From an uncultured Eubacteriales bacterium (GTDB lineage: Bacteria; Bacillota; Clostridia; Lachnospirales; Bianqueaceae): 37,798 bases of DNA. The notes under the pieces were generated by a model. That model was not told the DNA's origin. It did not search any database and was given only the letters and a program-made list of their open reading frames with translations. Below, one piece after another: positions 7,269 to 32,837 of the stretch. The stretch covers positions 1 through 37,798 of the forward strand of contig CACZRP010000095.1 of assembly GCA_902783575.1 (NCBI GenBank), given 5' to 3'. How positions within the stretch are numbered: position 1 is the first letter of the stretch; each line of letters begins with the position of its first letter. The translations under genes were made by a program, and so were the position numbers.

Positions 7269-7331
7269 TTATGCCGTATTTATGCCGATGCGGGCCGGAA
7301 TATTGAAAAATGCCGGAAAATCATATATGAT
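7269..7331 (+). promoter_or_regulatory. Secretion-operon promoter with 11-bp-period direct repeat
   Basis: TTATGCCG occurs at 7269-7276 and again at 7280-7287 (period 11 bp), followed by ATGCG. The -35 box TTGAAA is at 7303-7308, then a 17-bp spacer and TATGAT at 7326-7331. The second repeat ends 15 bases before the -35 box, which suits an activator. The same arrangement occurs at 30001-30062. The leader to the pilin ATG is about 87 bases. Confidence 0.7.
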
Positions 7332-7424: not shown

Positions 7425-7706
7425 ATGTTCGAACAGATTTCAAGCCCCATTGTTCAGCTGATCTACAATCTGCTTACTCCCGCGCTGGCCATTGTCGGCG
7501 CCGCCGGAACCATCTACTGTGTTGTTCTCGGTGTCAAGTACGCGAGAGCCGAAGAGCCTCAGGACAGAGAAAAGGCTAAAGGCGCTCTTAAAAACGCCAT
7601 CATCGGTTTTGTACTGATATTTGTACTGATTTTCGCGCTGCAGCGGCTGATGCCTATCATGGTTCAGTGGGCGAACCAGAACGCCGGCAGCTCCATTATC
7701 AAATAA
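7425..7706 (+). CDS. Small two-helix membrane protein, T4SS pilin-like (93 aa)
   Basis: A short protein with two membrane segments (about residues 9-36 and 55-76) separated by a charged loop, EEPQDREKAKGALKNAIIG. This layout, including the charged loop followed by an amphipathic start of the second helix, is that of the VirB2/TrbC-like type IV secretion pilins of Gram-positive bacteria. No cleavable signal peptide is obvious: the first helix starts near the N-terminus. AAGGAGG at 7408-7414 precedes the ATG. It is the first gene of the operon and is followed by an attenuator-like hairpin, as expected for a subunit needed in excess. It could instead be a small membrane component without pilin function. 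Confidence 0.72.
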   Translation: MFEQISSPIVQLIYNLLTPALAIVGAAGTIYCVVLGVKYARAEEPQDREKAKGALKNAIIGFVLIFVLIFALQRLMPIMVQWANQNAGSSIIK

Positions 7707-7728
7707 AAATCTCTGCAAAGCAGTAAAG

Positions 7729-7773
7729 AACGGCCGGACTGTATTTCTCATTTGATGAATACCGGCCGTTTTT
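7729..7773 (+). terminator. Hairpin attenuator after the pilin gene
   Basis: AACGGCCGG (7729-7737) pairs perfectly with CCGGCCGTT (7762-7770) over a 24-base loop, and the run TTTTT ends at 7773. It lies between pilin and the rest of the operon with no new promoter visible after it. It is best read as a partial terminator that raises pilin output over the downstream genes. Confidence 0.65.
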
Positions 7774-7814
7774 GGTTAGTTATGAGAAAAAGAATTGAAG
7801 GAAAGGAGCACGGG

Positions 7815-9614
7815 ATGAATCTGAAAAAACCTTCCGGAGCGGCCGGAAGCCCGGTGAGCGGAAAACGGCCGTTTTATCTTCGGGGACTGACGCTGGCTGT
7901 CTGTGCGGTTCTGCTTCTTTCGCTGTGCTCCCTGAAAGCGTCCGCCTTCGAGATTGATACCAGCAAATTCCAGGATATTCAGGACGGCATTGACGGAACC
8001 ACGATTTATTACTGGTACAAGGGCGCTCCCCCCCAGGGGCAGTCAAGGTACGGATATCCGGTTCTGGTGGTCTGGGATGATAAGTATTACTGGAATCTCG
8101 GACAGGGCTTCCTTGATCATGTAGACGATACCTCCATCAGAATACGTGGTACCAAACAGCTGGCGGATGATGTGCCCGGCAACTTCTGGGGGCCACCCAA
8201 AGGCGATATCGACTGGAAGGACGGCTACTATGCGGGTGTCATTTCGCATTCAGTGATTTGGGGGGATAGCTATTATGATTACAAGGATGGATATCCGCCT
8301 GCCTATTATCGCTATACCAATTATGTCAGCAGCTCCGGCTCTCTGCTGAGCCAGCTGACAAACCTGGATGTGGAGACGCTGAAATCCAAAGGCACGGCTG
8401 TTTCTCTGGAGTGCCCTGAGGTACCGGAGATGATTCCTGCCGGATATACTCAGGACAGTAACAAGCGGCCTCTCTATGCTTTTAGGGGTTATGACAAACC
8501 CGCCTCCAGAGATTTTTATGTCATCGGCTATGCGGAAATGAAATCCTACGTTGATGAGGACCTTTTTGGCGTGGACTACGATCAGATCAGCTATCTGAAC
8601 TGGCAGCTGATGGTTCTGGAGGAAGGTTCTACCTTTTTGGTCAATGGCGTGCCCACGCTGGAAAAGGAAGTCAGCAAGAAAGTCTGGCAGGTTTACCCGG
8701 CGGATGAATACGACAACGTATATATCTATGGTGCCCAGGGATTTGTCTGGAATGATATATCCCGTATCAGTCACCGGTGGAGCTTCTGGAAAGACGTGGA
8801 GAAAATGCGTGACCGCACCACGAACCATCATTATATGGTTCACAGCGGCGACAAAATCGGCGACAGAGGTTATCAGTCGAAGGCGCCTGGCAATGGTACC
8901 TTTAAGATCTATTACGCGGATCCCAAGCTTCTGGCTTACCTGAACGGCAACTTCACTGTTGAGAGCGGCCAGGTGACCAGTCTGGACGGCCCCGTGCTGC
9001 TGCCGAGAAACTGCACCATCACCGTCAGGGACGGCGGTGTTCTGTCCGTAACGGGATGGATCATCAACAACGGCACCATCAAGGTGGAAGCGGGCGGCAC
9101 CCTTCTGGTTCAGGAAGATGCGGCCATCACCACCTGGGAATCCGCCTCCGGCCTCCATGCGGGACGCATCGGCTGCGACGGAATCATGATTGTCTCTTCC
9201 AACGGCAAGGTGCACTGCGGCGGCATTGACGGACTGCAGTTCGGCCAGGGAGCGGCGTGCATCAATTACGGTACCCTGATTGCGGAAAACTTCAGTGTCA
9301 GCTCGGATTATACCATTGAAAACCGCGGCAGCCAGAGCCGTGTGTTTGCCGGCTGGGGTTCCTCGGAGTCGGGCTATGGCCTTCTGACCACTTCCATTAC
9401 CGGAGATAGTTACCCCGGAAAAGGAACGCAGGAGAAGCAGTTCAATGTGAACCTTCCCACCGGTGCGGTATATGGCGCGGGAGCGGGAAGAGTCTATGTC
9501 AACGGCCGGGCGACCGTTTCCGGCAACTCCCTCAGCGGAAGCGCCTGCGCCAGAATGAACGGTACCGATCCGAAGCAGGATATTCAGCCTGCGCCTGAAG
9601 AAAGAACCGAGTAA
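7815..9614 (+). CDS. Secreted surface protein with beta-helix-like region (599 aa)
   Basis: I chose ATG 7815 because AAAGGAG lies at 7802-7808; an in-frame TTG at 7752 would start inside the attenuator hairpin. Residues 1-44 are a signal peptide (hydrophobic core TLAVCAVLLLSLCSL, likely cleavage after ASA). The mature protein is rich in Tyr, Trp and Gly. Around residues 385-500 short repeats such as GGVLSVTGWIINNGTIKVE and GGTLLVQED suggest a right-handed beta-helix. No C-terminal anchor, LPxTG motif or catalytic signature is visible. Position between the pilin and the membrane channel suggests an exported component or surface adhesin of the same machine. I do not recognise the family. Confidence 0.78.
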   Translation: MNLKKPSGAAGSPVSGKRPFYLRGLTLAVCAVLLLSLCSLKASAFEIDTSKFQDIQDGIDGTTIYYWYKGAPPQGQSRYGYPVLVVWDDKYYWNLGQGFLDHVDDTSIRIRGTKQLADDVPGNFWGPPKGDIDWKDGYYAGVISHSVIWGDSYYDYKDGYPPAYYRYTNYVSSSGSLLSQLTNLDVETLKSKGTAVSLECPEVPEMIPAGYTQDSNKRPLYAFRGYDKPASRDFYVIGYAEMKSYVDEDLFGVDYDQISYLNWQLMVLEEGSTFLVNGVPTLEKEVSKKVWQVYPADEYDNVYIYGAQGFVWNDISRISHRWSFWKDVEKMRDRTTNHHYMVHSGDKIGDRGYQSKAPGNGTFKIYYADPKLLAYLNGNFTVESGQVTSLDGPVLLPRNCTITVRDGGVLSVTGWIINNGTIKVEAGGTLLVQEDAAITTWESASGLHAGRIGCDGIMIVSSNGKVHCGGIDGLQFGQGAACINYGTLIAENFSVSSDYTIENRGSQSRVFAGWGSSESGYGLLTTSITGDSYPGKGTQEKQFNVNLPTGAVYGAGAGRVYVNGRATVSGNSLSGSACARMNGTDPKQDIQPAPEERTE

Positions 9615-9658
9615 CGGAATCTCTGTAAGACTGAAATCTTAGGATAAGCGGGAATAAC

Positions 9659-10627
9659 ATGAAGCGAATTCGAAATAAAACCAAGGCCTGGCTGCTGATC
9701 TGCGCTCTTGTGTGCTGTTTGTTCAGCACAGCGGTGCTGGCGGATACGGGATATTCTGGATATCTGGATCCCGAGACGGGGGAGCCCGCTGAGGATGACA
9801 CCTCCGATTCCGGCCGGGTTGAGCTTTCCGATACCATGTACTATGACTGGGATTCTCATGATTATGTCTATCCCATCAACTCGAATCTGGGAGATCTCCA
9901 CTGCAGCGTGGCCGATGGGATGATTGTCACCAGTCCGGTTTCCGTCAGTACGGGCGTCAGTACGGTGATTACCGTATATAAAGACGGCGAAGTATATAAC
10001 GGAAGCTACAGCGGCATCAGCGACCCCGGCGAATATGTGGTCCAGGCGGACGTGGACGGACAGAAAAAGCAGATCCTTTCCTTTACCATTCTGGGTGAAC
10101 TGGTGAGCTCCCTTTCCAGCTTTATTGTTCCTGACGGATTCTATGTAACCGAAGCCACCCGGAACGGGGAACCCATTTATACGGACCGGTATTCGGTCTC
10201 CCTGGCGGAAGAAGGAACCTACCGCATCACCTACGAAAGCTACGCGACGGATCTTTCCTATACCCTGACCACTACCATAGACAGAACGGGTCCGGAACTG
10301 ATATTCGAGGGCCGAACCGACAAGCAGGGCAGGTATCACAGCGCTGTGACCTATTCCAAAATTCTGGAAGGGGACTATGTGGTCCTTTTCAGGGACGGCG
10401 TGGAGGTGACGCCCTCCATTGCCCCCGATGGTACGGGAACGATTCTGGATAGCGGCAACTATGTCCTGGACGCTTATGACGCCGCAGGAAACATGACGGA
10501 ATATACCTTTACCATCATGGTATATTTCAACGTAAACAGTGTGATTTTCATTATTCTGGTGCTGCTTGTGATCGCAGGTGTGCTGGCATATATTTTCTTC
10601 AAACGGGAACGTCTGAAGATTGGATAA
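9659..10627 (+). CDS. Single-pass surface membrane protein with Ig-like ectodomain (322 aa)
   Basis: A signal peptide spans residues 1-28 (WLLICALVCCLFSTAVLA, then Asp). The ectodomain of about 260 residues is predicted to be beta-rich, with motifs common in bacterial Ig-like domains (GVSTVITVYKDGEVYNGSY, EEGTYRITYESYA, DSGNYVLDAYDAAGNMTEYT). The last 31 residues hold a membrane helix (VIFIILVLLVIAGVLAYIFF) and a basic tail KRERLKIG, giving a type I topology with the C-terminus inside. The ribosome site is weak. It lies 44 bases after the beta-helix protein and 54 before the VirB6-like gene. Possible roles are an envelope scaffold or a docking partner for the secreted proteins; the sequence does not say which. 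Confidence 0.75.
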   Translation: MKRIRNKTKAWLLICALVCCLFSTAVLADTGYSGYLDPETGEPAEDDTSDSGRVELSDTMYYDWDSHDYVYPINSNLGDLHCSVADGMIVTSPVSVSTGVSTVITVYKDGEVYNGSYSGISDPGEYVVQADVDGQKKQILSFTILGELVSSLSSFIVPDGFYVTEATRNGEPIYTDRYSVSLAEEGTYRITYESYATDLSYTLTTTIDRTGPELIFEGRTDKQGRYHSAVTYSKILEGDYVVLFRDGVEVTPSIAPDGTGTILDSGNYVLDAYDAAGNMTEYTFTIMVYFNVNSVIFIILVLLVIAGVLAYIFFKRERLKIG

Positions 10628-10681
10628 AACTCCATGACAAAGTATTGCATTATTATCAAAGAAAGGCGGAGGTGAGATCTG

Positions 10682-12763
10682 ATGAGTGGTTTGATCAGGC
10701 TGGATATCCTTGATTCACTGGAAGGTATCCTTAATGCCACCATATTCAAACTGGTCTATTACATCGAGTACGGTCTGTGCTGGATCATCAGTATTCTGTC
10801 TCAGCTTTTCGGTGTTTTTGCTGGCACGGCCAGGATCGAATACAACGAAAGATATGATTATCTGATCAATATCTTTTTCTCCAACCGTGTGATCAGCAAT
10901 ATCTACTGGGCGATGGCTCTGATCGGCATTGCCCTGACCATAGGATTTACCATCTGGTCCGTCATCCGGAAGATGTTTGACGCCTCGGGCAAGGTTCAAC
11001 AGTCGCTTGGACAGATCATCACGGCGGCGATCCGCAGCATCATCCTGATCCTGGGACTGAATCTGATTATGGCAGCCGTCATCAACGGCACCAACAAGCT
11101 GATGGAGCAGGTGGACATCATCTTCAAAAACGCCTACTATCTGGACCTGCCGGAAACCAGATATTTCACGGAAGATGAATATGCCGCCATGGGACGGTGT
11201 CTGATGACCATCGGCACCTATTCGCTGAATGATTCCAGCAACAACCGCTATAACATCAATCAGTGCTACAACAGTATCCGGCAGGATCTTCTGATACTGG
11301 AGGAGAACGGCGTTTTCCGTTACTCCTACTACGAGACGGATCCCAAAACAGGAGCCGTCAAGCAGACCTGGCAGTCGGTGCTGGCGAAAATCGCCAATTC
11401 GGCTGATCTTACCCAGGATATGAAGGTGGACAAGTACGACGAAGGTCTTTCCCAGAGCATCCAGGATGCCATGACCTATCTCAGACAGACCGGAAGACCG
11501 GAGGCCAAAGAATTTGTGGTCCGTTCCTTCAAGAGTGACGGCGATGCCCATCTGGACCGGCTGGTATTTCTGATGGGAACGCTCCGGGCGGCCAAGAAGC
11601 CTTCGTTTAACGAATCTCCCGCACTGGATGACCCCTTAAGAGGTCCCTACTACTATACGCCGAAAGAAAAGGACATCTACAATCTGGATCAGGTGAACGC
11701 GGACTTTAACATAGGATTCCAGATGGACCATATCGTCATTATTCTGGCAGCCATTGCCATTATCTTCGACCTGGTGGTCATCATTCTGAACTGTGTGGCC
11801 AGAGTTTTCAACCTGATGTTCCTGTACATTATCGCTCCTCCGGTCATAGCGGCCTCACCGCTGGACCAGGGAGGAAAGTTCAAGCAGTGGACCACCGCTT
11901 TTCTGGTGCAGGCCCTGTCCGTGTTCGGTACGGTCATCGCCATGCGGCTTCTGCTGATTTATCTGCCCATTGTGGTGGATCCCAAGCTGGTATTCTTCAA
12001 GGATAACCCGCTGCTCAACATGCTGGCCAAGTTTGTGCTGGTATACGGCGGTTTTGAGGCGGCGAAAAAGTCCACCGCTCTGCTGACCGGTATCCTGGCG
12101 GACAGCGCCGGATGGCAGTCACTGCAGGCTGGCGACATGTCCATGTCTGCGGCGAAGGCCATCGGTACCGTTACCGGCGTGGGAAAACGGATCGGCGGCA
12201 TGGCTGCGGGAGCTGCGGGAGCAGTGGTGGGCTTTGCCTTCCGTCCCGTTACCAACGCCATCAAGCGGCCCTTTAAGGCCATTGGAGATTACTGGAACAA
12301 TGCCGGCTCCGGCAATGACAAGGATCCCTGGAAGAAAAAGGGCGGCGGAGGAGGCGGCGGAGGCGCTCCGGAAGGAAAGAATCTTCTTCAGAATCCCGGC
12401 AACGGCGATGATGATAACAACAATAATAATAACAATAACAATCCTCTGGACAATCAGAATCTGAACCAGAACCCCATCAACCGGCGCAATTCCCTGAGGG
12501 ACAACAATAACCATCAGGATATCTACAACCGGCTGCTGAACGGGAACGGCAACGGAAACAACCAGCCACCTCAGAACCAGCATAATGCGAACAACAACCA
12601 GCCTCAGGTGAACAACAATCCGGTGGCTAACAACCAGCCTCATGTGAATAACAATGTGAACAATAATCAGCCCCGGAGAAGGGCGGGCTCTCAGGTGCTT
12701 CAGGCTCCGCCTCCGCTGAATATTAACCGGAACCAGAATCGCAATAACAATAATAACAACTGA
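10682..12763 (+). CDS. VirB6/TrbL-like polytopic channel protein with Asn-rich tail (693 aa)
   Basis: Polytopic membrane protein that fits the VirB6/TrbL channel component of type IV secretion. Membrane segments lie near residues 16-45, 75-98 and 108-135, then after a soluble loop of about 220 residues at roughly 350-385, 390-400, 410-440 and 445-475. The segment FNLMFLYIIAPPVIAASPLDQG followed by a conserved-looking GGFEAAKKSTALL is typical of these proteins in Firmicutes. Residues 545-565 are a Gly-rich linker, and from about 573 to the end the protein is an Asn/Gln/Pro low-complexity tail ending in six Asn. GGAGGTGA at 10668-10675 supports the start. It directly precedes the VirB4 gene, the usual order in Gram-positive systems. 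Confidence 0.8.
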   Translation: MSGLIRLDILDSLEGILNATIFKLVYYIEYGLCWIISILSQLFGVFAGTARIEYNERYDYLINIFFSNRVISNIYWAMALIGIALTIGFTIWSVIRKMFDASGKVQQSLGQIITAAIRSIILILGLNLIMAAVINGTNKLMEQVDIIFKNAYYLDLPETRYFTEDEYAAMGRCLMTIGTYSLNDSSNNRYNINQCYNSIRQDLLILEENGVFRYSYYETDPKTGAVKQTWQSVLAKIANSADLTQDMKVDKYDEGLSQSIQDAMTYLRQTGRPEAKEFVVRSFKSDGDAHLDRLVFLMGTLRAAKKPSFNESPALDDPLRGPYYYTPKEKDIYNLDQVNADFNIGFQMDHIVIILAAIAIIFDLVVIILNCVARVFNLMFLYIIAPPVIAASPLDQGGKFKQWTTAFLVQALSVFGTVIAMRLLLIYLPIVVDPKLVFFKDNPLLNMLAKFVLVYGGFEAAKKSTALLTGILADSAGWQSLQAGDMSMSAAKAIGTVTGVGKRIGGMAAGAAGAVVGFAFRPVTNAIKRPFKAIGDYWNNAGSGNDKDPWKKKGGGGGGGGAPEGKNLLQNPGNGDDDNNNNNNNNNPLDNQNLNQNPINRRNSLRDNNNHQDIYNRLLNGNGNGNNQPPQNQHNANNNQPQVNNNPVANNQPHVNNNVNNNQPRRRAGSQVLQAPPPLNINRNQNRNNNNNN

Positions 12764-12796
12764 TCTTGACCGTGTGTTTCTAAAAGGAGTGTCGAC

Positions 12797-15700
12797 ATGC
12801 AGCGATTAATACCCAACAAGACGAAAGTCCGTATCGAGCTGTTCCGCGGCGTCACCGTCGGGGATCTCATCGTATGCGCGATTGCGCTTGTGCTGCTGGT
12901 TTTCGTGGTCAGTTCAAATCTGGCCTGGAAATGGGGCATTGGTATTGTTATCATCGGCATCGCGGCATTCCTTTTAGTCAGACTGGATGATCAGCCCAAT
13001 TATCTGTATCTTCTTCATATCCTCAGCTTCCTGGGTTACCGGCGCAAATTTGCCAGGACCGTCACGGATCAGACCCTGCTGGGCATGGAAGAAAAGGGCG
13101 AGACCAATGCCCTGATGGACGAAATGTTCGAGGGCGATGCCTCCGCTGTGAGAACCGAAGTTTCGGGGAAAAAGAACAAGAGCAAAAACAGAAAACAGGA
13201 AAAAACCAGACAGTCCGGGAAAAAGGTCAAGGAGCAGGAGCTCTCGGAAGAGGAGCTTCAGAAGCGGGCCTGGGAGAAGGACGCTCAGATTCACAGAGCC
13301 GATATGAACGAGATTATGCCTTTCACAGGCATAGCCGACGGATATATTGAATACCTGAACGGTGCCTATTACGGCGCGGTTCTGGAAATTGACCCTGTGG
13401 AATTCCGCTTCTTCAGTGAACACCGCCGGCTGAACTCCATTGAAAACTGTCTGGGACGCATCATGCGGTCTCTGAATCCCAGCTTCAGTGCCAACATAGT
13501 GAAGCTGGAAAGACCCATCATGTATGATCATTCTCTGACGCTGGAGTATGATAAGCTGGACGGCCTGAGAACCAGCTACGAAAACGGCGCTTTATCCGAG
13601 GAAGAGCTGAAGGCCCGCGTGGAAATCGAATATGACCGCATCAACGAGCTGATCAGCTACACCGAGAACAATCACGTCGTCACCTCCTTCTTCTATCTGG
13701 TGCTTTTTGAAAGCGATAAGCGCCAGCTGGAAAACCAGATCCGGGATGCCCAGCAGCTGCTGACCAACGGCGAAATGAAGACCAAACGGCTGGGAGACCG
13801 GGAGCTGGCTGTATTCCTGAAGTATTCCAATCAGATCGATTTTGACGAGCGCGATGTGGAAAAGGTCCGTCCCGAGGAGCTGCATATCTGGGCACAGCCC
13901 GATACGGTGGATATTCATCCCAGACGGATTGAAGTCAATCATATTATCACCCACAATTTCCGGGTCGTTAATTATCCCACCATCGTTGATGATGCCTGGC
14001 TGGCATCCCTGATGAGTTATCCCGGAACCAAGGTGATGGTCAAGTTCAAGCCCATGGAGCGGGGCAAGGCCATCCGCAACATTGACCATTCTCTTACCGA
14101 GCTGCGGGGCCAGTGGAGTGCCACCGGCATCGACTCCAGAAGAATGGAGATCGAAAACCATATCAATACGCTCCAGACCCTGCTGGTCACCCTCCAGAAC
14201 GACGCGGAAGTGCTTCTGGAGACCAATATCTATATCACGGCCTACGATATTATGGCCACCCGTTCCAACCGTCATCTGCCTCAGCCTCCCATTTCTGACC
14301 TGCCGAACATGTCAGAAATGAAGAAGAGCATCCGCCGCAGCTGGCAGGAAAGCGGTTTCAGACTGAACAACATGGAATTCGAGCAGGTACAGGCGTTTAT
14401 CGCAACTCAGGTAAGCGCGCTGGATCCGCTCTCCAAAGAAGGCCGAGGGATTGCGAGCAATACGATTGCTGCCTGTTATCCCTGGGTTTTTGCGCACATT
14501 TCCGACGAAGGCGGCATCAAGCTGGGTGAAACGGATGGCGTTCCGGTATTCATCGACTTCTTCCGCCGTGACTCTGAACGTGTCAACAGCAATATGGTGA
14601 TCGTCGGTAAATCCGGTTCCGGTAAATCCTACGCCACCAAATCCCTGCTGGCCAACATGGCCGCCGAGGATGCGAAGATTTTCATTCTTGACCCGGAAAA
14701 TGAATACACCGAGCTGGCCGGAAATCTTCACGGACAGATTATCAACGTGGGCAATGCGCTCTATGGAAGACTGAATCCCTTCCATATTATCACGGCCCTC
14801 GATGATGACGAAGCCGGCGATGGAAACCCCAGCGGCTCCTACGCCACCCATCTGCAGTTCCTGGAGGAGTTCTTCAAGCAGATTATGCCTGACTGCGAAA
14901 AGGATGCCATGGAGTATCTGAATACGCTGGTGGATCATATGTATATGAACCACAACATCACTCCGGACACGGATCTTTCCACTCTTTCTCCTGAGGATTA
15001 TCCCATTTTCGACGATCTCTACGATGAGGTTCTTCAGGAGTTCCAGAACAGTGACAATGTCTTCACCAGAGATCTTCTCCGTTCTCTGATGAATTATATA
15101 TCCAAATTCTCCACCGGCGGGCGCAACGCCAATATCTGGAACGGTCCCAGCACCATTACAACGGATGAAAACTTTACGGTTTTCAACTTCCAGTCCATGC
15201 TGGCCAACCGCAATACCACCATTGCCAACGCGCAGATGCTGCTGGTGCTGAAATATATTGACAACGAAATCATTAAAAACCGTGATTTCAACCTCAGATA
15301 CCACGCCAACCGGAAGATTGTGGTGGTGATTGATGAGGCTCATGTCTTTATCGATTCCAAATTCCCCATCGCCCTGGACTTCATGTTCCAGCTGGCCAAG
15401 CGTATTCGAAAGTATAACGGTATGCAAATCGTTATTACCCAGAATATCAAGGACTTTGTCGGTTCCGAGGAACTGGCAAGAAAATCCACTGCCATCATCA
15501 ATGCCTGCCAGTACAGCTTTATCTTTGCCCTGGCACCTAATGACATGCAGGATCTGATCAAGCTCTACGAAAATGCCGGCGGCATCAATGAGTCTGAGCA
15601 GGAGCAGATCGTGCAGGCCCCCAGAGGACAGGCCTTTACCATCATGTCTCCCAGCAGCCGTTCCACCTTCCAGGTTGAGACGGCCCCGGGCATCTCTGAG

Positions 15701-16759: not shown

Positions 16760-16799
16760 TTGTTATTATTGAATTGACCTTTTGGAGGAACGAACGCTG

Positions 16800-22493: not shown

Positions 22494-22511
22494 TTCCGGG
22501 GAGTTTAGATT

Positions 22512-23486
22512 ATGAGCAAAGATGTAACATTTGAAAGTGAGAAGCTTGCCAAAAGGGAAGGGCGGAGGAAATGGATCATTCCCGCCGCCATTACCCTTGG
22601 CATTGTGCTCATTGTTCTGGCTGTGATTCTGATTCTCAGTACAGGAAAGAAAAAATACACTTCTCCGGAGGGACTGACCTTCCCCTATACCTGGACAGAA
22701 AACAAAGATACCATCACGCTGGAGATTGATCATACGGCCCTTCCGGAGTATGTTTGGAATTCCGTGCAGACCGATCAGGCGGACGAAAACGCGATTCTTA
22801 CCGTTGCCAAAGACGCCAGACAGTCGGAAAACAGCACTTCCTTCACCCTGAAGGCTATGAATCCCGGACGCATGAGCCTGGATTTCGTTCTCCAGGACGC
22901 GGAGCAAGCGGTGACTGCCAGTGAACTGAACCTTCTGGTGGAGGTTGTTCAGGAAGAAGAGAAGCTGACAGCCGTGGTGCTGGGAACCGTTCCGGAGGAA
23001 AAAACCGAACCCATCAGTGTGGGAGAGGACACCATGTTTCCCTACCGGATCTATATGGAAAACCGGTCTCTGGTCATTGAAGTGACGGACGTCCGGGTGG
23101 GTCAATACCTGGATTATCTTGAATCCCTTCCCCTTGATGATGAGAATGACTCCCATATTGTGGAGGTCGATGAGAGCGGAAATGCCATTCGTGATGAAGA
23201 AAGCAATCCCTATGAAGATCTTCAGAGAAACATGCTGAACGACTGGGAATGCGTCTGTTCCGATGAAACCCTGATGACCTCGGAAGGAATTCTCTACAAT
23301 GATGAAGTCATCCGTGCCTATGTCAGTCCTCTGGCGCCCGGCAGTTGTGAAATTCTTTTCCGCAGTGCCTATGCGGCTCAGGAGGTTTATGTTTCCTGTA
23401 CGGTGGAAGAGGATGGAAGCGTAACCATCCTGTCCCATCAGATCCGCGCGCTGCAGGCGGAACCCTCGGAGAGCAGCGCACAGTAA
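22512..23486 (+). CDS. Bitopic membrane protein with duplicated ectodomain (324 aa)
   Basis: A short basic cytoplasmic N-terminus (EKLAKREGRRKW) is followed by one membrane helix (about residues 23-46) and an ectodomain of about 275 residues, so the C-terminus is outside. The ectodomain appears to hold two copies of one beta-rich unit: TFPYTWTENKDTITLEI (near 56) matches MFPYRIYMENRSLVIEV (near 177), and the ends MNPGRMSLDFVLQDAEQAV and LAPGSCEILFRSAYAAQEV also align. No known family is recognised. This topology is shared with VirB8/TcpC scaffold proteins, which the locus otherwise lacks, but no sequence signature supports that. The start ATG 22512 follows a weak GGGGAG site 18 bases after the giant gene. 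Confidence 0.75.
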   Translation: MSKDVTFESEKLAKREGRRKWIIPAAITLGIVLIVLAVILILSTGKKKYTSPEGLTFPYTWTENKDTITLEIDHTALPEYVWNSVQTDQADENAILTVAKDARQSENSTSFTLKAMNPGRMSLDFVLQDAEQAVTASELNLLVEVVQEEEKLTAVVLGTVPEEKTEPISVGEDTMFPYRIYMENRSLVIEVTDVRVGQYLDYLESLPLDDENDSHIVEVDESGNAIRDEESNPYEDLQRNMLNDWECVCSDETLMTSEGILYNDEVIRAYVSPLAPGSCEILFRSAYAAQEVYVSCTVEEDGSVTILSHQIRALQAEPSESSAQ

Positions 23487-23507
23487 AAACGTAGAAAGGA
23501 GGCCCCT

Positions 23508-25520
23508 ATGGCAGGTCTTGGTGAAAAATTCAAGGAGCTGGATAAGAAAACCATCGTCCTCTATGTGCTGCTGTTTATTGTGGCAGCCTTTGTGCTGGGT
23601 TCTCTGATCCGGTTCGTCTTTGACAATTTCGGCGCCTTTGTAGGCATGGCGAAATGGAAGTTCGATCCCCATATGTTCATCGAACCGCTGACCTGGGGCA
23701 TCGGGCTTCTGATCTGCGGCGTATTTGTGATGGTTTATACCATCAACGGCGGATTTCTCCGCGCCGGCAAGAAGGGCGCCGGACTTCTGGGCGGCAAGGC
23801 CGATAAGAATGTGGTCGACAGCCCCCTGGAGAACAGCCGCTTCCTGACGGATCAGGAAAGAGATAAATATTTCCCGCCCTTTACCTATGATACCCTGTCG
23901 GAGTGCAAGAATGACGGCGTTCCGGTGCGGGCGATTCTGGATAAAAGAGGAAAGCTGGTGGGCAATTTCAAGCCCGGCGTTCACGCACTGGTTATCGGTG
24001 CCACCGGTTCCGGTAAAACCACCACCTTTATCAACCCCATGATTCAGCTGATCGGAGCCACCAACTGCGGCAGCAGCATGATCATGACAGACCCCAAGGG
24101 CGAGCTTTTCGATCTGCATTCCGGCTTTCTGAAGAGCCGGGGCTACAATGTTCATGTACTGGATCTTCGTGATACCTACTCCTCCAGCCGGTGGAACCCG
24201 CTGGAGCCCATCTGGGACGCCTATCAGGAATTCCTGACAGCAGGATCGGGCATCGTGGCCCATCTGGATTCCATGGCTAAATATCCGGACCTTCGACGGA
24301 TGAACGGCGAAGCGGATGAAGGCCAGGAATGGGTGGAGTGGAACGGAAGAGCCTACACGGACCTGAGTCACTGCAAGGACGATATCTCTGTGGCCCAGCA
24401 GAAAATCTACGATGAAATGTATGAGGATCTGTCCGACCTGATCGGCGGACTGATTCCTGTTCAGAACGAGAAGGATCCCCTCTGGGAGAAGGGTGCCCGA
24501 AGCATCGTCATGGCCACCGTGCTGGCCATGCTGGAGGACTCTGCCAATCCGGAGCTGGGGATGACCAAGGAAAAGTTCAACCTGTTCAACGTCAACAAAG
24601 CGCTGGGCAGCTCTGAAGACAACTATAAGGTTCTGAAAAACTATTTCGAAGGCCGCAGCAAGCTTTCCCAGGCCTATCAGCTGTCCCGTCAGGTTATGAC
24701 GGCCCCCGATACCACCCTGGGCAGCTACATGTCCATTACCTTCGATAAGATGAACCTCTTTAACGACCGTGGTCTCTGCGGACTGACCAGCGCCACTGAC
24801 ATCAAGATGGACAGCTTCGCCAATGAGCCCACCGCCCTGTTCCTGAAGATTCCGGATGAAAAAGATACCCGCCATGCCCTGGCTTCCCTTTTCATCCTGA
24901 GCACCTACAAAGCGCTCATTAAAATCGCCACCAATCTTCCCGGCCAGACCCTTCCCAGAAATGTCTATTTCATCATGGATGAGTTTGGTAACATGCCGAA
25001 GATTGACAAGTTCGGACAGATGATCACCGTCGGCCGTTCCCGTAAAATCTGGTTCAGCATGGTGGTTCAGTCCTTTGTTCAGCTTTCCAACGTGTACGGC
25101 AAGGAGGTGGCCGATATCGTCATCGGCAACTGCGGCGTCAAGATGTTCATCGGTTCCAACGATACGGATACCTGTAAGATGTTCTCTGAAATGTGCGGCA
25201 ATATGACGGTGCGCACCACCAGCACATCTTCCTCCCTGGGCTCCAAGGCGGGAGACATCAGCGTTTCCACCAACACCCAGGTCCGTCCGCTGATTTACCC
25301 CAGTGAGCTCCAGCGTCTGAACAACCAGGAGAGCACAGGAAACAGCATCATCGTTTCCTTCAACTCCTTCCCGCTGAAGACAAAATACACGCCCTCCTAC
25401 AAGTGTCCCTACTATAAGTTCGGTCCCATGGATCTGACAGAGATCCGCAGCAACATGTTCCGTGCGGATGAAGTTTTCTATGACCTGAGGGAACGCAATG
25501 AGAAGGTTCTCGGTGCGTAA
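23508..25520 (+). CDS. VirD4/TraG-type coupling ATPase (670 aa)
   Basis: Type IV coupling protein that recruits substrates and feeds them to the channel. Two membrane helices lie near residues 14-40 and 60-80, followed by the P-loop ATPase domain: Walker A GATGSGKT at 164-171, the family segment MIMTDPKGELFDLHSGFLKSRGY, and Walker B YFIMDEFGNMP with Asp491 and Glu492. VGRSRKIWFSMVVQSFVQL is the usual arginine-finger region, and the C-terminal part contains CPYYKFGPMD. All catalytic residues are present. The all-alpha insertion (about 250-370) is where coupling proteins bind their cargo. GAAAGGAGG supports the ATG. In conjugation this protein would partner a relaxase, but none is encoded here, so protein cargo is more likely. 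Confidence 0.93.
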   Translation: MAGLGEKFKELDKKTIVLYVLLFIVAAFVLGSLIRFVFDNFGAFVGMAKWKFDPHMFIEPLTWGIGLLICGVFVMVYTINGGFLRAGKKGAGLLGGKADKNVVDSPLENSRFLTDQERDKYFPPFTYDTLSECKNDGVPVRAILDKRGKLVGNFKPGVHALVIGATGSGKTTTFINPMIQLIGATNCGSSMIMTDPKGELFDLHSGFLKSRGYNVHVLDLRDTYSSSRWNPLEPIWDAYQEFLTAGSGIVAHLDSMAKYPDLRRMNGEADEGQEWVEWNGRAYTDLSHCKDDISVAQQKIYDEMYEDLSDLIGGLIPVQNEKDPLWEKGARSIVMATVLAMLEDSANPELGMTKEKFNLFNVNKALGSSEDNYKVLKNYFEGRSKLSQAYQLSRQVMTAPDTTLGSYMSITFDKMNLFNDRGLCGLTSATDIKMDSFANEPTALFLKIPDEKDTRHALASLFILSTYKALIKIATNLPGQTLPRNVYFIMDEFGNMPKIDKFGQMITVGRSRKIWFSMVVQSFVQLSNVYGKEVADIVIGNCGVKMFIGSNDTDTCKMFSEMCGNMTVRTTSTSSSLGSKAGDISVSTNTQVRPLIYPSELQRLNNQESTGNSIIVSFNSFPLKTKYTPSYKCPYYKFGPMDLTEIRSNMFRADEVFYDLRERNEKVLGA

Positions 25521-25534
25521 GGAAAGGAGCTTTC

Positions 25535-26077
25535 ATGACCGAATTAGAATGGGAAGTTAAGCAGGTTCTGGTGGGAAGAACCATTCTTCTGGATGACGGA
25601 AGACTGGCCACCATGGGACCTGAAGATTACCGCATGCCTACGGGCGTGATGGATGGCGCCACCGAGGTCCGGCTTTTCGGCCTGGCCAAAAAGCAGGTGG
25701 TGCTGGAATGCGATATGGATCAGGAAAGCGCCCTGCAGGCCGTGGGAGACGTTCTGAAGAACCTGGGCCGGGGACTGGTGCTGATTTATCACCCGGAGAT
25801 GGCAGCCTGCCTGTTCCGGTATATCCTTACCAGGCCGGCAGTGCTGACGGTGGGCTATGAGGAGGACAAGCTGATTCTCACAGCCTGGACCGGAAGAAGC
25901 CTGAACGCCTGGGCAGCCCTTCGCCGGGCCATCACCAGCTTTGAAAGGCATCTGCCTGAGGGCATCCGCTTTACCATGGAAGCGCCCCCGGTGGCGGCCG
26001 AAGAAGAAAAACCGGCGAAAAAAGCCTCTAAAAAGAAAAAAACAGTAAAGAAAACAGCGGAGGAAATCGACCAATGA
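25535..26077 (+). CDS. Unknown soluble protein with Lys-rich tail (180 aa)
   Basis: No family recognised. Residues 1-150 look like a compact alpha/beta protein without signal peptide or membrane helix (VKQVLVGRTILLDDGRLATM; LGRGLVLIYHPEMAACLF; DKLILTAWTGRSLNAWAALR). The last 25 residues are a basic tail with KKASKKKKTVKK. AAGGAG lies 6 bases before the ATG. Its stop overlaps the STAS gene start (ATGA), so it is translationally coupled to the partner-switching module, while it follows the coupling ATPase by only 14 bases. Plausible roles are an adaptor between the secretion ATPases and the regulatory module, or a substrate chaperone. Both are inferred from position only. Confidence 0.72.
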   Translation: MTELEWEVKQVLVGRTILLDDGRLATMGPEDYRMPTGVMDGATEVRLFGLAKKQVVLECDMDQESALQAVGDVLKNLGRGLVLIYHPEMAACLFRYILTRPAVLTVGYEEDKLILTAWTGRSLNAWAALRRAITSFERHLPEGIRFTMEAPPVAAEEEKPAKKASKKKKTVKKTAEEIDQ

Positions 26078-26379
26078 GCATGGATCTGAATCTGATCAAA
26101 AGAGGAACTGAAGGCGAGCTGAAGATGAACGGCTATATCGACGCCAGCAACGCGGCGGAGATTGAGAAAATCATCGTTGATCTGGTGGCTCAGTTTGATA
26201 CCCTGATTCTGGATATGGAAAAACTGGAATATGTTTCCAGCGCCGGTCTCCGGGCCTTCCGTCACGCTTATATGGATATGAGACAGAAGCATGGCCTGCT
26301 GGAGGCAAAGAATGTTTCCAGTTCCGTCATGGAGGTTTTCGAAATTACGGGATTTACAAGGCTGTTTAAGTTTATCTAG
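26074..26379 (+). CDS. STAS-domain anti-sigma factor antagonist, SpoIIAA/RsbV-like (101 aa)
   Basis: Single STAS domain of normal length. The signature LILDMEKLEYVSSAGLRAF matches the phosphorylation loop of RsbV and SpoIIAA. By alignment Ser56 is the residue phosphorylated by the cognate kinase, while the preceding Asp of the family is Ser55 here. In known systems the unphosphorylated antagonist binds the kinase and frees the kinase's other partner. The kinase and phosphatase genes follow directly. An alternative start (ATG 26080) would trim two residues; GGAGG at 26059-26063 fits the first ATG better. Confidence 0.92.
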   Translation: MSMDLNLIKRGTEGELKMNGYIDASNAAEIEKIIVDLVAQFDTLILDMEKLEYVSSAGLRAFRHAYMDMRQKHGLLEAKNVSSSVMEVFEITGFTRLFKFI

Positions 26380-26389
26380 GAGGTTTCCC

Positions 26390-26797
26390 ATGGAACGCTT
26401 GCTTATTCCTGCGAAGATCGACTATCTGGATGAAGTTACCGGTTTTGTGGAACGGTATCTGGATGAGTCCGGCTGTCCGGAAAAGACCAAGCTGCAGATC
26501 CGTCTTGCCATGGAAGAGGTCTTCGTCAATATAGTCAGCTATGCCTACGCGCCGGAAGACGGAGAGGCGGAGGTCCGCTTTGAAACCCTGAACGAGCCCT
26601 TCAGTATCCGCATTCAGTTTATGGACAGCGGAAAGCAGTTCGATCCTCTGGCAAAGGAGGACTCGGACACTTCCGAGGAGGCCATTCTGAGCCGTCCCGG
26701 CGGTATGGGAATTCTGCTGGTAAAAAGTGTGATGGATGATGTACAGTATTCCTACAGCGGCGGAAAGAATATACTGACACTGTACAAGAAACTGTAA
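26390..26797 (+). CDS. RsbW/SpoIIAB-like serine kinase (135 aa)
   Basis: GHKL/HATPase_c kinase of the anti-sigma type. The N-box is QIRLAMEEVFVNIVSYAY, the G1 box DSGKQFDPL and the G2 region RPGGMGILLVKSVMDDVQY, so ATP binding looks intact. Start ATG 26390 has AGGAGG at 26378-26383, overlapping the STAS stop; a longer frame beginning inside the STAS gene lacks a ribosome site. It should phosphorylate Ser56 of the STAS protein and hold a second partner when the antagonist is phosphorylated. No sigma-B or sigma-F-like factor lies in the operon, so the second partner is unknown: it could be the ECF factor upstream or a secretion component. Confidence 0.92.
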   Translation: MERLLIPAKIDYLDEVTGFVERYLDESGCPEKTKLQIRLAMEEVFVNIVSYAYAPEDGEAEVRFETLNEPFSIRIQFMDSGKQFDPLAKEDSDTSEEAILSRPGGMGILLVKSVMDDVQYSYSGGKNILTLYKKL

Positions 26798-26807
26798 CGG
26801 GGGAAAT

Positions 26808-28550
26808 ATGCCTGAGAAAAATGTAAGGGAGATGTCCGCGCTGGAGCGGAGGCATTATTCCCTGGAAGCAAGATCATTTCGGATCACGGTGCTGGGTGCG
26901 GCGCTGCTGGGCCTGGTAGCCCTGGTCATTGGACTGGGGCTTTATACTTATGCGCTGGTGGGGCAGTATGTGGGCGAGTCCTTTGGCCTGGCCCGCTCCA
27001 CAGCCATGGTGGTGAGTTCCGTGATGGACGTGGAATCCATGACCCGCACAGTGATGGATACCTATCACTCCCTTTCGGAAGAAGAGAGAGGCCAGACGGG
27101 AACTGACGGATACAGGGAGCGGTTCGCTGCCGTCCGGGAGAATGAGAATTTTGAAATGCTGAATTCCATTCTCCGGGAGTTTAAGAATTCCAGCGATGTG
27201 TATGATATTTATCTGGGAATGTACGACAGGGAAAAAGATGTGCTGGTTTATATCGTTGATCCCGATACGGAAGATCCCTGTTTCCCGGGCGAATGGGAGA
27301 GCGTTCCTGAGAAGGAGACAGAAAAGTTTTATTCCTGGGATGGCACCTCGAAGCTTTATGACATCAGCAATACCGAGAAATATGGCTGGATGTGCACCGC
27401 GGGCGTTCCCCTCACCAATCAGGCAGGGGAGATTATCGGCTTTGTGCTGGCGGATGTGACCCTGGAGGAAGTGGCTGCCGGCATGAAGAATTTTGTCATC
27501 CAGTATACCCTGGCCCTGTCTCTGAGCGTACTGATCTATGCCTTCTTCCTGAACCGGCATATCAAAAAGAACATGGTACAGCCCATCAATGCCATCGCGG
27601 AAGCCGCGGAAGCCTATATGGCTGCCAAGAATAACGGAGGTCTGGAGAAGAGCGATCTTTTCAGTTCCCTGAATATCCGCACCGGCGATGAGATTGAGAA
27701 CCTGTCTCTGGTGATGGCTGACATGGAACAGGACCTGCATGACTATATCACCAATCTTACCACCGTAACCGCGGAGAAGGAAAGAATCGGCACAGAACTG
27801 ATGCTGGCCACCAAAATCCAGGAGAGCGTTCTCCCCAATTCTTTCCCTGCTTTTCCCGAACTGGAGGAATTTGAAATTTACGCCTCCATGGATCCCGCCA
27901 AGGAAGTGGGCGGCGATTTCTATGATTTCTTTATGGTGGATGACGATCATCTGGCCATGATGACCGCCGATGTTTCCGATAAGGGAATCCCGGCAGCCCT
28001 GTTCATGATGACCTCCCGCACCATGCTGAAGGATGCCCTGCTGGCGGGGCTGGATCCGGCCGGAGCCCTCAGAAGAGTGAACAGCCAGCTCACGGAGAAC
28101 AACAGCTATTACATGTTTGTGACAGTATGGATCGGTATTCTGGAGATTTCCACCGGTAAGCTGATTCACGCGGACGCAGGACATGAGCAGCTGATCGCGT
28201 ACCATAACCATCAGTGGCAGCTGCTGCCCCGGGGCGGCGGTGTGGCTCTGGGTGCCTTCGATTCTGAAATGCTGGCCTCGGAAGAAAAACCTGTGTTTGT
28301 CAACCGGGAGCTGAAGATGGATCCCGGCGATATGATTTTCCAGTATACCGATGGTGTTCCGGAGGCCATGAACTCGGAGAGGCGGCAGTTCGGCATGCCC
28401 CATCTGCTGGATACCATGAATGAAATCGGCGAGCTTTCTCCCACGAATCTGCTGCCTGAAATCAGGAAGCGGATCGACGCGTTTGTACAGGATGCGCCTC
28501 AGTTTGATGATATTACCATGCTGGCGCTTCGATATAAAGGAAGTAAATAA
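26808..28550 (+). CDS. Membrane-anchored SpoIIE/RsbU-type PP2C phosphatase (580 aa)
   Basis: Phosphatase expected to remove phosphate from the STAS antagonist. Residues ~25-55 are a first membrane helix, 56-228 an extracytoplasmic Cache-like sensor, and ~229-250 a second helix followed by a HAMP-like linker and coiled coil. The catalytic domain begins at TKIQESVLPNSFP. Metal-binding motifs are present: GGDFYDFF, ADVSDKGIPAALFM, GHEQLIAY, QYTDGVPEA and QFDDITMLAL. The architecture is that of RsbU/SpoIIE-family sensors that turn an outside signal into dephosphorylation. It lies 10 bases after the kinase gene with a GGGGGA ribosome site. The ligand of the sensor domain cannot be read from sequence. 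Confidence 0.9.
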   Translation: MPEKNVREMSALERRHYSLEARSFRITVLGAALLGLVALVIGLGLYTYALVGQYVGESFGLARSTAMVVSSVMDVESMTRTVMDTYHSLSEEERGQTGTDGYRERFAAVRENENFEMLNSILREFKNSSDVYDIYLGMYDREKDVLVYIVDPDTEDPCFPGEWESVPEKETEKFYSWDGTSKLYDISNTEKYGWMCTAGVPLTNQAGEIIGFVLADVTLEEVAAGMKNFVIQYTLALSLSVLIYAFFLNRHIKKNMVQPINAIAEAAEAYMAAKNNGGLEKSDLFSSLNIRTGDEIENLSLVMADMEQDLHDYITNLTTVTAEKERIGTELMLATKIQESVLPNSFPAFPELEEFEIYASMDPAKEVGGDFYDFFMVDDDHLAMMTADVSDKGIPAALFMMTSRTMLKDALLAGLDPAGALRRVNSQLTENNSYYMFVTVWIGILEISTGKLIHADAGHEQLIAYHNHQWQLLPRGGGVALGAFDSEMLASEEKPVFVNRELKMDPGDMIFQYTDGVPEAMNSERRQFGMPHLLDTMNEIGELSPTNLLPEIRKRIDAFVQDAPQFDDITMLALRYKGSK

Positions 28551-28552
28551 CC

Positions 28553-29935
28553 ATGCCGGATCAAAAGGAGACTTACCGGTCTTATATTCACCGGATGAGC
28601 ACAGGCGAGGGGGATCCGGGATCTCAGATCGCCGGGATGATCGCCGCTCAGATGCTCATGGCCGAGGCGCCTCCCGGAGCGGAGGTGGATGAAGCCAGGA
28701 TCCTGGAGCTTCAGGACAAACTAATCAGACAGACCAGCTTCCTCAAAATGATGCAGGATCCTGAGACGCCGGAGCTGGCAGCCCGGGGCGACGGAACCGG
28801 TCTTGTGCTGAAGCTTGCGGATAAGGAAAATGAGCGCCGTCAGGAGCTGAACATCTATGCCAGGACGCCCGAGCAGGCACCGGCGGATGCCGGATTTCTG
28901 AAGAATGTCCTCTCTTCTCTGGAGGACAGAAGCCATGGGAAAAGTCCGCTGCAGCTGGAGCAAAACAGCCGGCGGTTCTACGATATGGTCAAGGAGCTGG
29001 ATGCGGCCAGGATGGCATGCGAGCAGGGAGCCGCACTGGACGCCCTCCAGGTCAGAAAGCTGATCCATGTCTGCCAGCGCTATATTGATGGAAAGGAAAA
29101 GATTCCGGGAGGAGAACAGGAACGGGCTGCCTATCAACAGGCCATGTGTACCCTGAAGCAGTTCATGCCGGAGGAAGAGTTTTCCAGATACTGCCGCAGC
29201 ATCAACCGGGCCCAGAAAGCCAAATCCCCCGCCCATTCCCGCTATGCGGATCCGGGGGCCTTTGAGGCCGGCCGCTTAAGCGGCGATGTGCGGACAGCCA
29301 AGGAAATTCTGTGGGATGCAAGAAGAGAGCTTTCCCGCGGAATCAAGCTTACGGACTGCGCCACCGTGGCAGCGGTGCAGGAGCTGTCCAAAGGAAACCC
29401 CAATGCCCTCATCGGTAAAGAAGAACTGGAGAAAACAAAACAGAAGCTCATGAGTCCCGGCTCCGCCTTCAGAAAGACCATGAGCGACCGGACGGCCCTG
29501 AGGCATTTTGCCTCCCTGGCTTCCAAAGGAAAGGTCATGGAAATGGGAAGATCCATGGTGACCGCCGCCCGGGAGCACTCCGTCAGAACCGCCCAGTGGC
29601 ATATGAACCGCTCCAGCGAAGCCCTGGTGAAGGGAAATCTTTCCGGCAAGGCGGCCGTCGATCACCTGGCCAATGTGCTCTCAGCCAGAGAAATAGCTGT
29701 CTCGGCCTCGGCCCAGAGCCAGATCACCAATAAAGCCTTCCAGCAGAAGGCGGAAACGCTGAAGAATGACCCGTCCTTTGCGGATCTGGCTTCCCGCTAT
29801 CTGAAGGAGCCTGCCTTCCAGACCAGGATCAATCATTCCCTTCAGGAAAACAACTCCGCCATGGATCTGGAGAAGGCCTATGAGGAGACCAAAAATCCGG
29901 TGAAAACCCCGGAAGAAGCACTGAACAGCCATTGA
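28553..29935 (+). CDS. Unknown cytosolic helical protein with repeat module (460 aa)
   Basis: No recognised family, signal peptide or membrane helix. Composition is charged and Ala/Leu-rich, predicting mostly alpha-helix. Two stretches, about 26-90 and 368-450, resemble the helical module seen in the proteins of the next operon: AVDHLANVLSAREIAV ... AETLKNDPSFADLASRYLKEPAF... parallels VVDYLATVTALSQTPLY ... LRQDKQMKALADKYCADQEF there. It starts 3 bases after the phosphatase stop, with AAAGGAAG as ribosome site inside that gene, and is the last gene before a strong terminator. Candidate roles are a secreted substrate, a chaperone or a cytosolic platform of the machine. Confidence 0.75.
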   Translation: MPDQKETYRSYIHRMSTGEGDPGSQIAGMIAAQMLMAEAPPGAEVDEARILELQDKLIRQTSFLKMMQDPETPELAARGDGTGLVLKLADKENERRQELNIYARTPEQAPADAGFLKNVLSSLEDRSHGKSPLQLEQNSRRFYDMVKELDAARMACEQGAALDALQVRKLIHVCQRYIDGKEKIPGGEQERAAYQQAMCTLKQFMPEEEFSRYCRSINRAQKAKSPAHSRYADPGAFEAGRLSGDVRTAKEILWDARRELSRGIKLTDCATVAAVQELSKGNPNALIGKEELEKTKQKLMSPGSAFRKTMSDRTALRHFASLASKGKVMEMGRSMVTAAREHSVRTAQWHMNRSSEALVKGNLSGKAAVDHLANVLSAREIAVSASAQSQITNKAFQQKAETLKNDPSFADLASRYLKEPAFQTRINHSLQENNSAMDLEKAYEETKNPVKTPEEALNSH

Positions 29936-29958
29936 GAATTTTATGTACAGAATTGCCC

Positions 29959-30002
29959 TGAACCGCGGCAGAATCGGAAACGATCAGCTGCGGTTCATTT
30001 TT
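29959..30002 (+). terminator. Rho-independent terminator of the secretion operon
   Basis: TGAACCGC (29959-29966) pairs with GCGGTTCA (29990-29997). The stem continues inward through a G-U pair, two more pairs, one mismatch and two more pairs, and is followed by TTTTT. This is the strongest terminator in the window and marks the end of the transcript starting at the pilin. Its U-tract overlaps the first repeat of the next promoter. Confidence 0.82.
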
Positions 30003-30062
30003 ATGTCAATTTTATGCCGGATGCGCTTAACCTCTTGAAAAATCCGGTGCCTTTGATAAAAT
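30001..30062 (+). promoter_or_regulatory. Second-operon promoter with the shared direct repeat
   Basis: TTATGTCA (30001-30008) and TTATGCCG (30012-30019) repeat with an 11-bp period and are followed by GATGCG. TTGAAA at 30035-30040, a 16-bp spacer and TAAAAT at 30057-30062 form the core promoter. The second repeat ends 15 bases before the -35 box, exactly as at 7269-7331. The -35 and following bases (TTGAAAAATCCGG here, TTGAAAAATGCCGG there) are also nearly the same. Confidence 0.7.
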
Positions 30063-30121
30063 AGGGATATGAAAAAAACAAGGGAAAACCTTATGGATAG
30101 AACGAGAAGGAGTGAACAGAT

Positions 30122-32488: not shown

Positions 32489-32504
32489 ATGCAGGAGATC
32501 CCCC

Positions 32505-32837
32505 ATGAATGATAACCAGAAGGCAAGAAAATGGAAGTTCATGATCGGCGTTATCGTCGCTCTGGCCATTATCGGAATCCTGGACTTTAAGGGAATTTTC
32601 ATCATACTGGCTTTTATTCTGGTGGTGCTGGTGATATGGTTCGCCGTTCCGCTGATTCATCTCTTCCGGATGGGTCAGCTGGGCAGCCGGCAGCCCGAAC
32701 AGAAGGAAAAGCCCAAGAGCGAACGGTCCGCCTACCAGGGACCGGACGTCTGGATGGAGGAGCAGGCAGGGCCTGTGATTGATCTGGTGGAAGATGAGAA
32801 CGGACGCCTGGTGAAGGCTTCCGAAAAGGATGAATAA
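32505..32837 (+). CDS. Small membrane protein with two helices (110 aa)
   Basis: I chose ATG 32505 because AGGAG lies at 32493-32497; the longer in-frame ATG at 32448 lies inside the preceding gene without a ribosome site. A basic N-terminus (DNQKARKWKF) precedes two closely spaced hydrophobic segments at about 11-29 and 31-52, with a hydrophilic C-terminal half (RQPEQKEKPKSERSAYQ, then an acidic end). Both ends are probably cytoplasmic. The family is unknown. It is the only membrane protein of the second operon and could tether the neighbouring cytosolic proteins to the membrane. Confidence 0.72.
   Translation: MNDNQKARKWKFMIGVIVALAIIGILDFKGIFIILAFILVVLVIWFAVPLIHLFRMGQLGSRQPEQKEKPKSERSAYQGPDVWMEEQAGPVIDLVEDENGRLVKASEKDE

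Follow-up and report, generated by a model that had tools for sequence, protein, structure and literature searches.

We analysed a 37,798-nucleotide window (positions 1 to 37,798 of contig CACZRP010000095.1, assembly GCA_902783575.1) from an uncultured Eubacteriales bacterium of the family Bianqueaceae, order Lachnospirales. The window spans an entire contig of a 2.5-Mb metagenome-assembled genome, and statements of absence for this genome cover that contig only. Between 7425 and 35311, all on the + strand, lie the genes of a type IV secretion system (T4SS): a VirD4-type coupling protein, a VirB6 protein and a VirB2 pilin are present in one locus, together with exported proteins, a phospho-switch and candidate substrates. 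A scan of 84,980 species genomes returned 486 places with related genes, and counts of loci given here refer to the best 80 of these. The features of the system, with lengths in amino acids (aa) and transmembrane segments abbreviated TM, are as follows.

7425-7706, + strand: VirB2-like T4SS pilin, 93 aa (PF18895, T4SS_pilin, 56.8 bits vs cut-off 26.6, E 2.5e-15)
7752-9614, + strand: exported protein C8, 620 aa, with signal peptide and without Pfam family; in 49 of 80 loci, which are often truncated
9659-10627, + strand: exported protein C0, 322 aa, with signal peptide, ectodomain, C-terminal TM and basic tail; 61 of 80 loci
10682-12763, + strand: VirB6-like polytopic channel protein with N-rich tail (NCBIfam MMCAP2_0566, 149 vs 90, E 1.6e-43)
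12797-16759, + strand: VirB4 ATPase with N-terminal two-TM segment and acidic C-terminal extension (TraG P-loop, E 1e-20)
16782-22493, + strand: giant exported protein with no sortase motif or C-terminal TM; 71 of 80 loci
18972-19454, + strand: PLAT/LH2 (C2-like) domain, where the giant is best conserved (sequence match to PF01477 E 4.7e-4, 21.3 bits vs cut-off 23)
22512-23486, + strand: membrane-anchored protein C20, single N-terminal TM, remainder probably extracellular; no family; 50 of 80 loci
23508-25520, + strand: VirD4 coupling ATPase (PF02534, T4SS-DNA_transf, 180 bits, E 9e-53)
25535-26077, + strand: C11, small cytosolic alpha/beta protein; 41 of 80 loci
26074-26379, + strand: STAS anti-anti-sigma-type switch protein (PF01740, E 8.8e-14; motif YVSSAGLR)
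26393-26797, + strand: RsbW-type serine kinase (PF13581, E 2e-24)
26808-28550, + strand: membrane SpoIIE-type PP2C phosphatase (PF07228, 138 bits, E 4e-40; catalytic Asp motifs present)
28553-29935, + strand: candidate substrate E460, helical domain at residues 25-241 (iterated profile; genome search E 4e-48, the copy itself being in the query alignment)
30122-32488, + strand: candidate substrate E788, domain at residues 37-234 and several ~65-aa repeats (profile searches)
32867-33694, + strand: candidate substrate E275, domain at residues 49-257 (E 3.5e-8, absent from the query; hhalign probability 94)
33710-35311, + strand: candidate substrate E533, domain at residues 178-383 and a further repeat near the C-terminus (profile searches)

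The components named in an earlier note on this DNA (VirB4, VirD4, VirB6, a pilin, STAS, RsbW, SpoIIE and three exported proteins, the largest of 1,897 aa) were all found at the places it had given. Its description of the operon as free of relaxase and integrase agrees with the Pfam scan, in which no relaxase, integrase, transposase, replication or partition family was found among the window proteins scanned. The extent it had proposed, 7425-29935, holds for those genes, but the system runs on to 35311, and a second block at 30122-35311, which carries most weight for the interpretation, had been left out.

The conjugation module of mycoplasma integrative and conjugative elements (ICEs, ICEA among them) and Spiroplasma plasmids resembles the system in its pilin, VirB6 and VirB4 families (Mbov_0395, Mbov_0396 and Mbov_0397) and provides the closest sampled VirB4 branch. 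The pilin reached 52.7 bits against the NCBIfam Mbov_0395 pilin (over the cut-off of 40) and VirB6 83.3 bits against Mbov_0396 (over the cut-off of 70, E 2e-23), whereas VirB4, ~28% identical, scored 532 bits against Mbov_0397 and stays under the equivalog cut-off of 590. In contrast to the mycoplasma module, the system is without a transposase or partition gene and has as extras the giant PLAT protein, C0, C8, C11 and the phospho-switch. VirD4 matches the CD1115 family NF045973 with 307 bits (over the cut-off of 250). In VirB4 the Walker A (GKSGSGKS) and Walker B (IDEAH) motifs are conserved across 13 relatives, a sequence search found a relative in the PDB (4ag5, E 3e-59), and the N-terminal two-TM segment is VirB3-like by topology only. 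The D/E-rich C-terminal extension of VirB4 (12797-16759), ~300 residues long, is unusual; extended VirB4s of 1,200-1,600 aa occur in most relatives, the f5 and f11 loci being exceptions at ~920 aa, and virB4 is split into two open reading frames (ORFs) at L138, L095 and L150, through decay or sequencing error.

Around this engine stands a set of envelope proteins. The giant measures 1,897 aa from an ATG at 16800, or 1,903 aa from the TTG chosen by the ORF lister, and is conserved over ~1,450 residues with a peak at 721-840, followed by a hydrophilic, variable tail. Modelling of residues 660-1480 gave an all-beta structure (predicted local distance difference test, pLDDT, 79.8), and its PLAT domain superposes on that of 5-lipoxygenase with Z 13.6 and a root mean square deviation of 1.7 A over 115 residues. 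Two further PLAT-like stretches (~20139-20510 and 20511-20891) gave weaker matches to plant lipoxygenases. PLAT domains in other families bind lipids or proteins, and the giant may act in membrane contact through them. C0 has a weak titin/Ig-like sequence match (E 0.028), C20 resembles VirB8 in topology only, and PDB sequence searches with the helical domain, the giant and C0 returned nothing useful. The part of the machine that spans the envelope is probably built from the exported proteins, so that secretion and surface structure, offered as alternatives in the earlier note, need not be opposed. At f11 loci a 1,780-2,400-aa protein with a two-TM end clusters with the T4SS pilin, as if a giant were fused to a pilin-like anchor (G214 75604-81411, G193 42064-48210, G175 33586-40788, G226 14309-19657; L063/L064, L074, L076/L077, L071).

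The partner-switch module is complete, with the STAS protein, the RsbW-type kinase and the SpoIIE-type phosphatase encoded together. The RsbW start lies near 26393; the ORF lister's start at 26291 would overlap STAS. In most other genera virB4 is followed directly by the STAS gene, and the partner of the module may be a sigma factor or the secretion machine.

Lachnospiraceae and Oscillospiraceae from rumen and gut, isolates among them, share this gene order. Across the 80 loci the stable order is pilin-C8-(VirD4)-C0-VirB6-VirB4-STAS-giant-C20-C11, then RsbW/SpoIIE, from which the window's lineage departs in having VirD4 and STAS downstream of the giant. The system is present in 4 of 7 genomes of the window's genus, in 4 of 19 of the family (all of that genus) and in 23 of 392 of the order. 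By label, 45 of the 80 loci come from ruminant assemblies and 4 from horse, while the remainder carry no such label or belong to isolates; this tally is biased because the best 80 were picked by similarity. Isolates with the system include R. flavefaciens YRD2003, E. ruminantium FB3002, Lachnospiraceae AC2029, NC2004 and C10, and Pseudobutyrivibrio YE44. Some genomes have two or three copies (G397 contigs C8, C56 and C16; RGIG2672, L087 and L093). No relatives were found in the viral collection, and the best plasmid VirB4s in a plasmid search are at most ~31% identical, i.e., distant relatives only. Flanks differ from species to species and the distribution is patchy, which makes loss of the island or rare horizontal transfer likely. 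We found no published description of the system in a search on Lachnospiraceae, Ruminococcus, Pseudobutyrivibrio and STAS/SpoIIE, which left most subscription papers and preprints outside, so that an earlier description is possible.

Phylogenetically, 51 VirB4s of the system form one clade (Shimodaira-Hasegawa-like approximate likelihood ratio test, SH-aLRT, 100; stem 1.86) that excludes the ten conjugative VirB4s in the tree, and the nearest sampled proteins are those of mycoplasma ICEs and Spiroplasma plasmids. The tree was built without Patescibacteria; because its ingroup was gathered by similarity and the outgroup branches are long, it shows distinctness and not the exact root. Other VirB4s of the same genomes score ~33-150 bits against the system's VirB4 profile, compared with ~1,300-1,700 for the system's own.

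Relaxases were surveyed with PF03432 in two sets of 23 and 40 genomes (61 distinct), and the contigs with matches were compared with those carrying VirB4. There were 28 matches over the 23 genomes and ~60 over the 40, and none in the 61 genomes lay on the contig of the locus except in AC2029, whose chromosome is a single contig and whose nearest match is 371 kb away. About a third of the genomes (6 of 23 and 16 of 40) have no PF03432 match anywhere. MOBT (PF02486) was found in 1 of 37 genomes, on another contig; genome-wide, the search covered these two families and not MOBM or further relaxase classes. Among the families listed (the 25 most frequent of 52) in ~90-kb stretches of two relatives with long contigs, the flanks hold metabolic and transport genes and no integrase or transposase.

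The four ORFs downstream of SpoIIE have in common a previously undescribed helical domain of ~200 aa, recognised by iterated profile. When 19 genomes of the family were searched with a five-copy profile, matches appeared in all four genomes with the system (4-5 per genome, mostly on other contigs) and in none of the 15 without it. A wider search with a 19-sequence profile, marked by the motifs YxKGKKxxR, DRxNxVR and NYG, found the domain in 21 of 39 system-bearing genomes and in 0 of 20 that lack the system (Fisher 2e-5, kinship disregarded). The copies lie mostly far from the locus and number up to 13 per genome: in the isolate E. ruminantium FB3002, 13 matches are spread over ~nine contigs and the copy on the VirB4 contig is ~200 kb off. 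We read 57 domain proteins of 88-1,751 aa, some cut off by contig ends. TM and signal segments are absent from all but one (56 of 57), and a tail of 14-60 aa usually separates the domain from the C-terminus. Of 53 complete proteins, 31 have I, L, V, F or M as the final residue, compared with 56 of 195 neighbours (p 9e-5); basic tails are frequent in E. ruminantium and NC2004. A small same-strand gene follows within 60 bp in only 3 of 49 cases, which argues against a systematic immunity partner.

Outside the shared domain, no Pfam family exceeded its cut-off in the members scanned. No known toxin domain was found by Pfam in those members or by PADLOC in two window members (PADLOC gave generic ATPase hits only), and no BID-domain family matched by Pfam in the domain proteins scanned. 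A 1,111-aa domain protein of E. ruminantium FB3002 (L264:3630-6965, G408:C11) has a sub-threshold match to PI3/PI4-kinases (E 1.6e-5) and DRHTGN and IDNDETF motifs. In other lineages, large helical ORFans stand beside the system (G126 15268-21709 and 39634-46491; G299 60001-72173; G125 124776-130650; G175 26620-31971). Profile comparison of the helical domain with the ORFans of G126, G299, G125 and f11 gave no link above 50% probability; a different module of ~110 aa is shared across families by some of the large TM-less ORFans of these other lineages. These ORFans are likely to be further substrate families.

Taken together, the system is quite probably a chromosomal T4SS, akin to the machine by which mycoplasma ICEs conjugate, that has given up the transfer of its own DNA and exports proteins in one step. 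Protein export into other cells appears the most likely function because no DNA-transfer enzyme lies beside the machine and because a family of large cytosolic domain proteins is scattered over the genomes. The dedicated chromosomal protein-secretion system that the earlier note had envisaged is supported, on comparative sequence grounds, by the checks that the note had suggested (a gene order conserved over many genera, the relaxase survey and the separate VirB4 clade) and, in addition, by the co-occurring candidate substrate family. Its further claim that the system is fixed in the chromosome has to be qualified in view of the patchy occurrence and variable flanks.

In the mechanism we propose, VirD4 would recruit cytosolic substrates through the ~200-aa helical domain and a short tail that ends in hydrophobic or basic residues, domain and tail forming a bipartite signal like the BID domain and tail of Bartonella effectors, and the remainder of each substrate would be the effector part. 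VirB4 and VirB6 would push substrates through the membrane, and C0, C8, C20 and the giant PLAT protein would provide the path across the wall and the grip on the target surface. The STAS/RsbW/SpoIIE module would switch assembly or firing on, and the STAS protein, with its gene beside virB4 in most genera, may act directly on the machine. In most known T4SS substrates the signal lies at the C-terminus and consists of a few residues, basic or hydrophobic, to which BID adds a domain (PMC6509941). The effectors of the Bartonella VirB/VirD4 system are likewise multidomain cytosolic proteins in which a C-terminal domain and short tail act as a bipartite signal (PMC6509941); the candidate signal domain described here differs in being ~200 aa long, without BID Pfam match, and in coming from bacteria with a Gram-positive envelope.

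Other known systems show partial likeness. The T4SS of Patescibacteria is also relaxase-poor, chromosomal and monoderm, of MPF_FATA descent and with PF18895 pilins (PMC12102498), but its published description, on which the comparison is based, gives no VirB3-VirB4 fusion and places VirD4 rarely near virB4 (PMC12102498). Streptococcus suis 89K is a Gram-positive T4SS proposed to export the protein SspA-1 (PMC12857230); however, it is a transferable island (PMC3132442), and no comparable effector family or phospho-switch has been described for it. Conjugative MPF_FATA systems of the pCF10/pGO1 type share VirB4, VirD4 (CD1115 family) and VirB6/pilin-type components but have relaxases, wall hydrolases and plasmid functions, and their VirB4 clade is distinct from that of the system.

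The kinship with mycoplasma ICEs invites the view that the locus is itself a conjugative or integrative element moving its own DNA with a relaxase or transposase that escaped recognition. The nearest VirB4, pilin and VirB6 families belong to elements that use a DDE transposase and have mostly unannotated genes (PMC6030558), and the patchy distribution with species-specific flanks fits such an element. We nevertheless regard this as distinctly improbable: no transposase, integrase, replication or partition family appeared in the window or among the flanking families listed, the order is conserved despite large protein divergence across many species, there is no GC anomaly, and the partner proteins are scattered over the chromosome. 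A relaxase-free machine for DNA uptake or release, of which Gram-negative examples are known (PMC12857230), has a very slight chance of being the answer, given the co-occurring protein family and an operon in which no competence or nuclease family was found. The locus could also build a surface fibre or attachment organelle, with the domain proteins as cytosolic accessories or regulators and not cargo. The pilin, the giant PLAT protein and several exported proteins are indeed conserved envelope parts, and the four domain proteins at the locus adjoin the phospho-switch; yet this view, which we hold improbable, leaves unexplained why a genome should have so many paralogues, unlinked and divergent, in which the domain is mostly C-terminal and the tail hydrophobic-ended, and why VirD4, the substrate receptor, is kept.

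Among the readings in which proteins are delivered to other cells, the nature of the target is the weakest step. Translocation against competing bacteria, as by the X-T4SS of Xanthomonas, would suit the many candidate substrates per genome, their ORFan regions and a dense bacterial habitat. It seems unlikely in view of the rarity of small downstream genes, the lack of known toxin domains by Pfam and PADLOC in the members scanned, and the PLAT domains and PI-kinase-like motif, which hint, weakly, at eukaryotic-type targets. A eukaryotic microbe is a more likely target than a kin bacterium because the substrates rarely have an immunity-like neighbour. Tentatively, then, and with the odds somewhat against so specific a combination, rumen and gut Clostridia may use a repurposed, phospho-switched T4SS with a membrane-binding PLAT giant and a new secretion-signal domain to inject eukaryotic microbes (ciliates, fungi) or host cells with large sets of effectors, both ORFan and kinase-like.

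Several observations weigh against protein export by this machine or against parts of the proposed mechanism. The domain family is not universal, since 18 of the 39 genomes with the system show no copy (several of them have other large helical ORFans beside it), and the Fisher tests overstate independence because the genomes are related. The domain is N-terminal or internal in the four window ORFs and some others, and could mark an accessory instead of a substrate. The PI3/4-kinase match is sub-threshold (25.4 vs the Pfam cut-off of 27.1). No family match to VirB8 or to the wall hydrolase VirB1 was obtained among the window proteins. A chaperone role for C11 was considered and is neither supported nor excluded, because its confident model (pLDDT 88) matches many unrelated alpha/beta folds at Z ~7, the best Foldseek E being 1.5e-3.

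One regulator gene and two promoter-like sites accompany the system.

6679-7257, + strand: XRE helix-turn-helix and receiver-domain regulator, directly upstream (PF01381 and PF00072)
7303-7331, + strand: promoter-like site ahead of the operon, TTGAAA-17-TATGAT (10 of 12 match, the region's best on the + strand; consensus only)
30035-30062, + strand: promoter-like site before the second block, TTGAAA-16-TAAAAT with extended -10 (10 of 12, the region's best; consensus only)

The regulator is retained directly upstream in all four system-bearing genomes of the window's genus. Because all genes from the pilin to E460 (7425-29935) lie on the + strand with gaps of -4 to 54 bp, behind the first promoter-like site, the single transcription unit that had been proposed for this stretch is plausible. 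A 186-bp gap after 29935 precedes the second same-strand block, in which a small two-TM protein is encoded between E788 and E275 (32448-32837). Flanking genes encode, by Pfam, an FAD-linked oxidase, an electron-transfer flavoprotein, an acetyltransferase, a sigma factor, a SIS protein and a cellulase-type protein, and GC content is uniform along the window.

Whether Gram-positive T4SSs act as dedicated effector translocators is a long-standing question for which S. suis 89K is the main case (December 2025 review, PMC12857230). The lineage described here is conserved, chromosomal and free of relaxase, it occurs in rumen bacteria that can be cultivated, and it comes with candidates for both a substrate family and a signal domain; with these in hand the question becomes directly testable. 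The likely function of the system is nearly undocumented for a T4SS in Gram-positive bacteria, and if ciliates or fungi are indeed the targets, a hidden layer of interaction in the rumen would be exposed.

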